64,000 nucleotides of DNA from Neptunitalea chrysea (GTDB lineage: Bacteria > Bacteroidota > Bacteroidia > Flavobacteriales > Flavobacteriaceae), in the NCBI RefSeq assembly GCF_027924145.1, contig NZ_BRVP01000005.1, positions 62,001 through 126,000 of the forward strand. The letters run 5' to 3'. The notes beneath the pieces were generated by a model. It was not told the origin of the DNA. It worked only from the letters and a program-made list of their open reading frames with translations, and did no database searches. Both the position numbers and the translations under genes were made by a program. Shown in pieces: positions 41,130 to 44,691 of this stretch. Position 1 is the stretch's first letter. Each line of letters starts with the position of its first letter.

Positions 41130-42434
41130 ATGAAGAAGCTCGCTTTACATTGGCAAATATTATTAGGAATGTTATTCGGGGTGCTTTTTGCACTTGGAAT
41201 GGTTCAATTTTCCTGGGGTCCTGATTTTGTAAAAGACTGGATAAAACCATTTGGAAGTATTTTTATCAATTCCTTAAAGTTGATAGCAGTTCCTTTAATA
41301 TTAGCTTCTTTAATTAAAGGAGTTTCTGATTTGAAAGATATTTCAAAGCTTTCTAAAATGGGGGGCAGAACGATTATTACCTACATAGTAACTACTGTTA
41401 TTGCCGTGTCTATTGGTTTGGCTATAGTAAATGTGGTAAAACCAGGAAGAACCATTACGGAAGAGACAAGGAATGAATTGTTAGAAAATTATAAGGGAGA
41501 TGCGGACAAAAAAATTGCAGATGCTGAAAAACAGAAGGAAACTGGCCCATTACAGGCATTAGAAGATTTAGTTCCGAGCAATATTTTTAAAGCTGCTACA
41601 GATAATGGTAATATGTTACAGGTTATCTTTTTTGCGATTTTCTTTGGTATAGGTTTAATTTTAATTCCGGAAGAACAGGCAAAACCTGTAAAAGCATTTT
41701 TTGACGGATTTAATGCGGTTATTCTCAAACTCATAGATGTTATAATGTTAGCGGCTCCTTATGGGGTTTTTGCGCTATTAGCTGCATTAATTGTAGAGTC
41801 ACCTAGTGCAGATTTATTTGTTTCGCTATTTTATTATGCCCTTTGCGTTGTGGGGGGTCTTTCTATTATGTTGGGGATATATGCAATCATTGTTTGGATA
41901 TTTACAGGTAAATCACCAGCATATTTCTTTAAAGGGATTTCACCAGCACAATTATTAGCTTTTTCTACAAGTTCTAGTGCTGCAACATTACCTGTAACGA
42001 TGGAGCGTGTAGAAGAGCATTTAGGAGTAGATGAAGAGGTGACTAGTTTTGTGTTGCCAATTGGTGCTACAATTAATATGGATGGAACTAGTTTGTATCA
42101 AGCGGTTGCCGCAGTATTTATAGCTCAAGCATTTGGTATGGATTTAGATTTTACTACGCAGTTAGGTATAATTGCTACAGCTACATTAGCTTCTATAGGC
42201 TCGGCGGCTGTGCCTGGAGCAGGTATGGTAATGTTGGTAATTGTTTTAGGACAGGCAGGTATACCAGCAGCTGGTTTAGCTCTTATTTTTGCTATAGACA
42301 GACCTTTAGATATGTGTAGAACAACCGTAAATGTTACAGGGGATGCTGCAGTGTCTATGTTAGTGGCAAAATCGGTAGGTAAACTACATACACCCAAGCC
42401 TAAAGAATGGGACGATAATTATCATCAGAAATAA
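41130..42434 (+). CDS. Dicarboxylate/amino acid:cation symporter (DAACS family)
   Basis: Integral inner-membrane transporter of 434 residues with the GltPh/DctA fold. Markers are the serine-rich hairpin STSSSAATLPVTMERVEEHL, the substrate motif GATINMDGTSLYQAVAAVFI, a second hairpin GSAAVPGAGMVMLVIVLGQA, and DRPLDMCRTTVNVTGDA, where the final Asp/Arg region sets substrate specificity. It couples uptake of glutamate, aspartate or C4-dicarboxylates to sodium or protons. An insertion of charged residues after the third membrane segment (about 110-140) is loop-like. Aspartate/glutamate versus C4-acid specificity is not decided. Confidence 0.94.
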   Translation: MKKLALHWQILLGMLFGVLFALGMVQFSWGPDFVKDWIKPFGSIFINSLKLIAVPLILASLIKGVSDLKDISKLSKMGGRTIITYIVTTVIAVSIGLAIVNVVKPGRTITEETRNELLENYKGDADKKIADAEKQKETGPLQALEDLVPSNIFKAATDNGNMLQVIFFAIFFGIGLILIPEEQAKPVKAFFDGFNAVILKLIDVIMLAAPYGVFALLAALIVESPSADLFVSLFYYALCVVGGLSIMLGIYAIIVWIFTGKSPAYFFKGISPAQLLAFSTSSSAATLPVTMERVEEHLGVDEEVTSFVLPIGATINMDGTSLYQAVAAVFIAQAFGMDLDFTTQLGIIATATLASIGSAAVPGAGMVMLVIVLGQAGIPAAGLALIFAIDRPLDMCRTTVNVTGDAAVSMLVAKSVGKLHTPKPKEWDDNYHQK

Positions 42435-42597: not shown

Positions 42598-44691
42598 TTA
42601 ATTTAAATTTATGTTACTTCCTCTTGGATGCTTAATTTGGTAGGATACATGTTTTTCTAAATGTTCACCAGCATTTATAGGAATCCTCCATTCCAGTATG
42701 CCTTTTTCTTCATCATAGGTGTCAGCATCATAATTCGATTCACTAACCTTGATTTCTTTATTTTGAGAGATAGGAATTCTATCTAAGAGTTTTACGGTAA
42801 TTTTTTTATTTCCTGTGTTTTGTAAAGAAATGGTGTAGGCTCTGTCTACTATACGAGTATTACCAATAAATGGAGTCGATTTATAATTATTATCTAAGGT
42901 TCTTTTTACGGTGATAGCTGGTGCAACCCCTAAAGATACAACCATATCTTTTCTGGTTTGTAACGGATTTATAAACGTTTTACCAACATATAGTCCTGAA
43001 AAATAGACATTACATTCTCCCGGGAGTAGTTTAAGATCTTTCCAGTTTTCTAATGTAGCTGTTAAAAATACATTTTCGTTTAGTACTGGTGCTGTTACAT
43101 ATTCGTATGTTGCCTTTACAGACATTTGATCAATATCTACTACCGTAACATCCATTACAGACGAGATATTTTGATGTTTCTTTATTTTGTATTCTACGGA
43201 TGTAATATTTTGTTTTTCAAAAACTTCTTTAGTGGTAATAACTATAACACCATTAGCTGCTTTAGATCCATATAAAGATGTAGATGTTTTGCTACTATTT
43301 TTTAACACTTGCATGGATTTTATGGAATTAGGATCAAGACTGTTAAAATAATCACTTGTTTGTGGTGTACCATCTATAATATAAACTGGAGGTTGGTTTT
43401 CATTGGTACTTACAAGTCCTCTTATTCTAATGTTGTCACTACTTCTAGGTGCTCCGTTTGTAGTAACAACATTAATACCACCAACATAACCACTTAAAGC
43501 ATCGTTTACAGAAGACTTATTTTTTTTATCGATAAGTACCATATCATCTAATGTATAAATATCTGGTTGTAATGTTAGATTAATAAGTGAATTATAAACA
43601 GGTATTTTTTCAGGAATAAAACCAACGTATGAGATATTTAGATTTCTACCATTACCCACTTTAATTTTATATTTACCATTCACATCTGTAGTTGTACTAT
43701 TAGATGTTTCTTCAATAGTAACTGTAGCTCCCTGAAGTGATTTTCCTTTTGAGTCGGTTACTATCCCTATGATTTCTTTTACAAAAGGATTGTACTTATA
43801 AGAAGTGTTTTTGCCACTGCTGTTTACCGAGTAATTTGTATTGTATGAGAAATTAAGATAATGAGGTGTTAGTTTGGGATTTTCAGTATTTACGGTAGGG
43901 TCTGCAGTAGAAAGGGTAACGGCTACATCATCCCAATTTTCTCCAGTATCCTGATACACATGTGCTTTGAAGAATATATCGAGATTACTATCGGTAGAGG
44001 CGGTTTTAATATCATATACAGGAAACCATCCGGCATTAGTAACATTATAGTTGATGTGTAAATCTAATTGAATGGGCTTATTGGTATTAAGAGTTACAGT
44101 AAGGACTCCTTTTTGCTCTTTGTTTTTAGAACCAAGTACGTTTAATTCATTTTGGTAGGTTTCTAACAACTCGGCAATACTATCTTTAGCTAAGGAGTGA
44201 TGATATTTTTCATCTGCAATTTGATGCGTACGCTCTCTAAAATAGGTAGCAAATTGTTTTAGCTTATCTAAAGAAGCATTCTCTTCAGAAAGTACTTTTC
44301 TATTGTTTAATAGCAGTGTTTCCTCCTCATTTAGTCCTTTAACCATGTTATCAATAAGTGCAATCTCTTTTTGGTTGGCTTTCATGAACTGCTGTAGTTG
44401 CTTAGTTCTTTCAGTACCTGTTTTCGCAAAGATATATGTAGTATTAAAGTTCATGGCTGAAATAGCAGCTTTACTTAGACCACTTATCTGAATTGAGTTT
44501 TCATCAATAAAAGGAGAAAGGTTTGTGAATCTAAAGACGGTTTCTCCTGTTGGAAGATAGCATTTTGCAGTTCTTTCTATATGTGCACCCGATAGATATA
44601 CGGTAGCATTGGTAATGGTAGACGGAGTTTCTTTTATGGGGTTATTAGCAAACACCCAAAAAGGAATAAAAATTAGTAATAGCTTTTTCAT
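42598..44691 (-). CDS. MuiA-like DUF4140/DUF4139 protein with inserted carboxypeptidase-like and TonB-plug-like module
   Basis: Exported protein of 697 residues (signal peptide about 1-16, FIPFWVFA). The DUF4140 domain (about 24-110) has TNATVYLSGAHIERTA. A coiled coil (about 95-185) comes next. DUF4139 begins about 190 with NYNVTNAGWFPVYDIKTAS and resumes after about 500 with SVEYKIKKHQNISS, ending at 697. Between them (about 306-487) lie a carboxypeptidase-regulatory-like domain (GIVTDSKGKSLQGATVTIEE) and a plug-like segment with IRIRG and PPVYIIDGTP, ending AANGVIVITTK, all without a barrel. DUF4139 proteins have no established biochemical role; relatives were named for mucoidy inhibition. 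The reading frame is continuous, so this is a true fusion. Confidence 0.88.
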   Translation of the reverse strand: MKKLLLIFIPFWVFANNPIKETPSTITNATVYLSGAHIERTAKCYLPTGETVFRFTNLSPFIDENSIQISGLSKAAISAMNFNTTYIFAKTGTERTKQLQQFMKANQKEIALIDNMVKGLNEEETLLLNNRKVLSEENASLDKLKQFATYFRERTHQIADEKYHHSLAKDSIAELLETYQNELNVLGSKNKEQKGVLTVTLNTNKPIQLDLHINYNVTNAGWFPVYDIKTASTDSNLDIFFKAHVYQDTGENWDDVAVTLSTADPTVNTENPKLTPHYLNFSYNTNYSVNSSGKNTSYKYNPFVKEIIGIVTDSKGKSLQGATVTIEETSNSTTTDVNGKYKIKVGNGRNLNISYVGFIPEKIPVYNSLINLTLQPDIYTLDDMVLIDKKNKSSVNDALSGYVGGINVVTTNGAPRSSDNIRIRGLVSTNENQPPVYIIDGTPQTSDYFNSLDPNSIKSMQVLKNSSKTSTSLYGSKAANGVIVITTKEVFEKQNITSVEYKIKKHQNISSVMDVTVVDIDQMSVKATYEYVTAPVLNENVFLTATLENWKDLKLLPGECNVYFSGLYVGKTFINPLQTRKDMVVSLGVAPAITVKRTLDNNYKSTPFIGNTRIVDRAYTISLQNTGNKKITVKLLDRIPISQNKEIKVSESNYDADTYDEEKGILEWRIPINAGEHLEKHVSYQIKHPRGSNINLN

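Follow-up and report, generated by a model that had tools for sequence, protein, structure and literature searches.

An MuiA-family protein interrupted by a SusC front end

The muiA gene of Neptunitalea chrysea raises the question of what a SusC-type plug can do in an envelope protein that has no barrel. The gene lies in a 64,000-nucleotide stretch of the genome, which is called the window here. It forms a single open frame and was found once in its own genome, the other matches there being SusC-like front ends. Domain searches confirmed that the encoded product is an MuiA-family protein interrupted by a SusC NTE and a SusC plug, with the following parts.

42598..44691, minus strand: MuiA-family (DUF4140/DUF4139) protein with SusC-derived module, 697 aa (Pfam, NCBIfam)
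44641..44691, minus strand: Sec-type signal peptide, ~aa 1-17, without lipobox cysteine (read from the sequence; homologues have the same kind of N-terminus)
44311..44607, minus strand: DUF4140 domain, aa 29-127 (Pfam)
43882..44061, minus strand: first part of DUF4139, aa 211-270 (Pfam, AlphaFold2 model)
43552..43779, minus strand: SusC NTE domain (CarbopepD_reg_2, Ig-like), aa 305-380 (Pfam; fold match to 9hfj, Z 12.9)
43525..43551, minus strand: TonB-box position, aa 381-389, LDDMVLIDK, degenerate here and DEVVV in nearly all relatives (alignment, BT1763 comparison)
43225..43524, minus strand: SusC-type plug, aa 390-489 (IRIRG, VYIIDGTP, LYGSKAANGVIVITTK), with no barrel after it (Pfam, fold matches)
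42622..43209, minus strand: second part of DUF4139, aa 495-690 (Pfam, AlphaFold2 model)

In the Pfam analysis of the window ORF, DUF4140 matched aa 29-127 (E 1e-15, profile positions 1-98/98), and one DUF4139 match was stretched over aa 211-690 with all 205 profile positions (1-205/205, E 3e-48). Both CarbopepD_reg_2 (PF13715; aa 309-383, E 3e-11) and Plug (PF07715; aa 387-482, E 2e-14, 54.6 bits versus a cut-off of 23.9) fell inside the DUF4139 span. A first-pass annotation had described a DUF4139 protein interrupted at 43231-43776 by a CarboxypepD_reg-like domain and a plug without a barrel; these coordinates equal aa 306-487, and the Pfam and structure matches confirmed the domains, with the insert at aa ~305-490. 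Neither the Pfam search nor the structural model showed a 22-strand β-barrel after the plug: no barrel family was matched, and DUF4139 resumes at aa ~495. In the NCBIfam comparison, the protein scored over the curated cut-off of the MuiA model TIGR02231 (258.9 bits versus 112.6) and was sub-threshold for the SusC/RagA model TIGR04056 (159.6 bits versus 368.25).

The order of NTE, TonB-box position, and plug is that of SusC/RagA transporters (TIGR04056), and the insert matched BT1763 and RagA in both fold and sequence. Unlike these transporters, the MuiA fusion has no β-barrel, and its module sits inside another domain. As in the MuiA family (TIGR02231), DUF4140 and DUF4139 are both present at full length, whereas compared with the ~530-aa MuiA relatives that have no module, the window protein has ~185 extra residues in one DUF4139 loop. 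Since the N-terminus reads as a Sec-type signal peptide without a lipobox, the periplasm is most likely the default place of the fusion protein. The surface location that had also been considered gained no support, as the N-terminus is of this kind and the sequence reads without any sign of a C-terminal sorting domain. A dicarboxylate symporter gene (window 41130-42434) adjoins muiA, and the same neighbor was observed at loci L044, L047, L048, and L073. Among the loci compared, muiA had no conserved operon partner and only a partly shared chromosomal context.

Predicted structure of the insert

The whole window protein was predicted with AlphaFold2 on a 32-sequence alignment, and the plug piece was predicted separately with 72 relatives. 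In the whole-protein model, the body and the NTE were ordered, aa 381-431 were disordered, and the plug core was moderately confident; the plug core (~aa 431-487) had pLDDT values of 86-94 when predicted apart. The NTE (aa 303-383) matched the crystal structure of a SusC NTE (9hfj; Z 12.9, rmsd 1.9, 79 residues), and the TonB-box-plus-plug piece matched the SusC protein BT1763 (6zlt; Z 9.0, rmsd 2.9, 104 residues). All significant Foldseek matches of the plug piece were TonB-dependent transporters. The plug-like folding earlier proposed for residues 306-487 is thus borne out, with both inserted parts matching SusC folds in the PDB. A fold search with the DUF4139 body returned ranked matches, none of them a clear relative. 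Chain E of PDB 9n2d, the extended Flavobacterium johnsoniae BAM complex, was NTE-like when compared with aa 302-388 (Z 8.1), in a non-transporter setting.

Family distribution and fixed insertion point

Among 249 Flavobacteriaceae genomes sampled, 59 had DUF4139, and 34 of these carried an intact plug-bearing DUF4139 copy with the plug at the same loop. The 34 comprise 30 genomes whose copies align over their full length with the window protein and four further loci with a plug (L049, L050, L059, and L060). The congener has the same domain layout, with 58% identity to the window protein. An assembly error, which had been named as a possible source of the fusion, is ruled out by the single open frame, the congener, and the 30 end-to-end alignments, and intact copies in 34 of the 59 family genomes speak equally against it. 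In all plug-bearing family copies, the insertion point in DUF4139 was identical by alignment and loop reading; across the Bacteroidota fusions, the same two approaches place it in one DUF4139 loop, which settles in the affirmative the earlier question of whether it is fixed. A restriction of plug-bearing forms to the family, read from ORF length, proved to be wrong, as class-mates L087, L098, and L101 carry them. In one further muiA copy, that of L073 (G118:C28:76946-78951), the plug is broken by one TAG and two TAA codons, and neighboring genomes have intact copies.

Loop states across Bacteroidota

In a phylum sample of 345 genomes, ~120 DUF4139 loops were read. The loops showed all mixtures of NTE, box, and plug: all three together; NTE and box with the plug shortened or gone; a plug without an NTE (L059, L084, L087, L098, and L101); a TonB-box-like motif without an NTE (L062, L064, and L067-L069); and, in some short loops, just a box-like or LxGxxxG piece. 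Approximately 30% of the loops had none of the motifs, indicating that the MuiA body works without the module, which counts against a TonB-related function of the module. On the tree of the flanking domains, plug presence changed at least 11 times, a rough figure because some degenerate plugs escape the search pattern. In the clade of the window copy, at least four branches (L042/L045/L047, L044, L046, and L048) have apparently lost the plug, and each retains the NTE and box. The NTE was kept throughout large clades, the plug was the part most often lost or shortened, and many copies were without strands of the plug N-terminal half. In L101, L103, L111, and L057, SusC front-end motifs were permuted in the DUF4139 loop, an arrangement that simple erosion of one insert does not explain. 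The first-pass annotation had treated the fusion as a lone oddity; the loop instead gains SusC pieces again and again and lets them decay, and the fusion is one of its states.

A TonB-box stretch between the NTE and the plug, conserved in the family

The segment between the two inserted domains, which the first-pass annotation missed, occupies the TonB-box position of SusC. In BT1763, the TonB box VDEVVV directly follows the NTE (PF13715), and deleting or mutating the box impairs growth on levan (PMC7782687). At this stretch, the MuiA relatives read LDEVVVxGYG. Among 32 aligned sequences, the TonB-box columns had a mean pairwise identity of 0.76, the highest of any segment, whereas all others lay between 0.36 and 0.55 (NTE, 0.54; plug core, 0.49; DUF4139, 0.52-0.55). 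The window sequence LDDMVLID was the sole clear departure from the box in this set, which counts against a TonB reading. A TonB-box-like motif was present in 73 of 116 loops (shuffled loops, 2.4) and, among the 60 loops without an NTE, in 18 (shuffled, 0.9); the shuffling in both comparisons ignores common descent. It was also present in 38 of the 41 loops that have an NTE but no plug. The stretch following the NTE is flexible in BT1763 (PMC7782687), so folding of the NTE does not explain the conservation of the box.

Three partners had been suggested for the barrel-less plug: a barrel made elsewhere, TonB, or another surface protein. The described anatomy, the absence of a barrel, and the suspected non-transport role all hold, but the surface part of the proposal is not supported. 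Because the box is the most conserved segment and persists after plug loss, TonB appears to be the best supported of the three, and a barrel made elsewhere is still conceivable as a partner of the plug. A TonB box in a periplasmic protein is well known for a single use: by strand addition, it docks on the TonB C-terminal domain. Since the NTE and box persist and this is the known use of the box, we tentatively favor, at somewhat less than even probability, an MuiA envelope protein with a non-transport, TonB-addressed SusC front end in one fixed loop, TonB binding being the inferred part. The presence of a seemingly complete front end (NTE, box, and plug) in the right order also speaks for TonB.

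Under this proposal, the module would offer the TonB box, beside the NTE, to the TonB C-terminal domain; MuiA would be a non-transporting client of TonB, and its body would do the acting. TonB force or availability would be passed to this body and could, for example, report on envelope or import status. The plug would be the less constrained, dispensable part, and the NTE and TonB box would be the part that stays. MuiA of Pseudomonas aeruginosa belongs to a regulon linked to cell-envelope stress, that of sigma-SbrI (PMC10418997), in keeping with such a status-sensing role.

Origin of the inserts and selection on the module

Several inserts were closest to SusC proteins of their own genomes. 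The whole L041 insert matched a same-genome SusC at 61% over 225 aa, with the next SusC at 41%; the L059 insert matched an own-genome SusC at 72%; the L084 insert reached 58%, with others at 36-40%; and the L087 insert reached 77% with a SusC and 72% with a VWA protein, both from its own genome. A same-genome SusC was likewise the best match of L026 (64%) and L019 (66%), which were picked since their plugs are closer to SusC than to the plugs of other MuiA proteins, so the six same-genome cases are partly selected. The donor comparisons covered the SusC genes retrieved, a subset of those in each genome; no same-genome donor was seen for L014 and L060 among the SusC genes compared, or for the window copy among its own SusC matches (≤44% over the whole insert). 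One SusC orthologue as the donor for all lineages was not supported, as the donors examined fall in several SusC groups. These sequence relationships are most simply read as repeated capture from, or gene conversion by, SusC genes resident in the genome; lineages would gain or renew the module through intragenomic recombination with such genes.

In the close pair L037/L040 (dS 0.5-0.7), dN/dS was 0.09-0.10 for the body, 0.15 for the NTE, and 0.21 (CI 0.11-0.37) for the TonB box and plug, indicating purifying selection. Between the window copy and its congener, dN/dS for the box and plug was 1.14 (CI 0.69-1.83) at a high dS, a value that misalignment or plug replacement may inflate, and constraint on the window plug was not detectable. 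The window copy appears to be a member with a drifted TonB box and a poorly constrained plug.

For this copy above all, passive capture is the main and serious rival, in which front-end pieces enter a tolerant loop by illegitimate recombination or gene conversion and then erode, leaving a functionless module. Such a process fits the same-genome donors, the 20-100 plug genes that each genome holds, the fragments in every erosion state and in permuted order, and the plug of the window without detectable constraint. However, it accords poorly with a TonB box that is the best conserved segment and stays after plug loss, with an NTE held through large clades, and with a dN/dS well under 1 in the close pair, and it leaves unexplained why the loop is always the same one and the front end is in frame. 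On balance, we consider passive capture unlikely.

The likeness of the inserts to same-genome SusC could also mean that the module is a plug mimic or adaptor that binds SusC barrels, SusCD complexes, or BAM, for instance by standing in for a plug or by acting as a checkpoint in assembly; it would then have to resemble the local SusC plugs. The plug core is predicted to fold as a SusC plug, and the NTE-like chain in the extended BAM structure 9n2d (Z 8.1) is consistent with this role, but it is the plug that is most often lost or shortened while the NTE and TonB box stay, strands of the plug N-terminal half are missing in many copies, and the examined donors belong to several SusC groups, making a mimic quite improbable. 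Least probable is that the NTE serves MuiA as an Ig-like spacer or interaction domain, with the box and plug having come along and mattering little: although the NTE is the best ordered inserted part in the model and is common to most inserted forms in the phylum, the plug without NTE in L059, L084, L087, L098, and L101, the TonB-box-like motif without NTE in L062, L064, and L067-L069, and the greater conservation of the box than of the NTE all argue against it.

Implications and other barrel-less plugs

In the literature searched, no paper linking DUF4139 with TonB was found, nor, with the phrases tried, any on barrel-less plugs or the reuse of SusC front ends; two papers that mention DUF4139 were unrelated. 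Deletion of the NTE in Bacteroides thetaiotaomicron BT1763 abolished growth on levan, and the authors suggest that the effect may not involve transport itself (PMC7782687). A small, apparently soluble natural NTE-box-plug protein would separate the study of TonB and NTE interactions from that of transport. Should TonB act on the MuiA fusion, its energy would serve purposes other than uptake, and the presence of multiple TonB paralogues might then make sense. The barrel-less SusC front end in MuiA, which several lineages appear to have retaken from SusC genes of their own, suggests that non-transporter proteins may also be targets of the TonB energy system. Its repeated origin within the same genome clearly exemplifies how a domain of a large paralogous family is captured by an unrelated host protein.

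The MuiA case seems to be part of a broader habit of reusing SusC front ends. M56 BlaR1-like, YfbK-like VWA, and small secreted proteins likewise have a SusC plug or plug half without a barrel in an envelope context; they differ from MuiA in their host domains, and the M56 forms have the plug C-terminal half alone. No evident TonB box was found in the M56 plug halves, which counts against the TonB reading. Among the plug ORFs listed for the genome of the window, none was short (the smallest being 611 aa), and the three longer ones inspected reach a barrel. It is possible, if doubtful, that Bacteroidota have a class of non-transporter TonB-addressed proteins (MuiA and perhaps some of the M56, VWA, and small secreted proteins) that took front ends from their own genomes, with TonB/ExbBD serving as a line of signaling or force to periplasmic proteins.

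M56 BlaR1-like peptidases ending in SusC plug C-terminal halves were observed at L173:1488-3203 and L174:1245-2978, with two tandem copies in L173. The small secreted proteins at L175:1983-2453 (156 aa) and L176:4306-4836 (176 aa) have little beyond a SusC plug, and the N-terminus of the former is lipoprotein-like. The YfbK-like VWA protein at L176:936-4131, encoded next to a likely ECF sigma factor, has an inserted NTE and plug, the latter sharing 72% identity with the plug in the MuiA of the same genome (L087).
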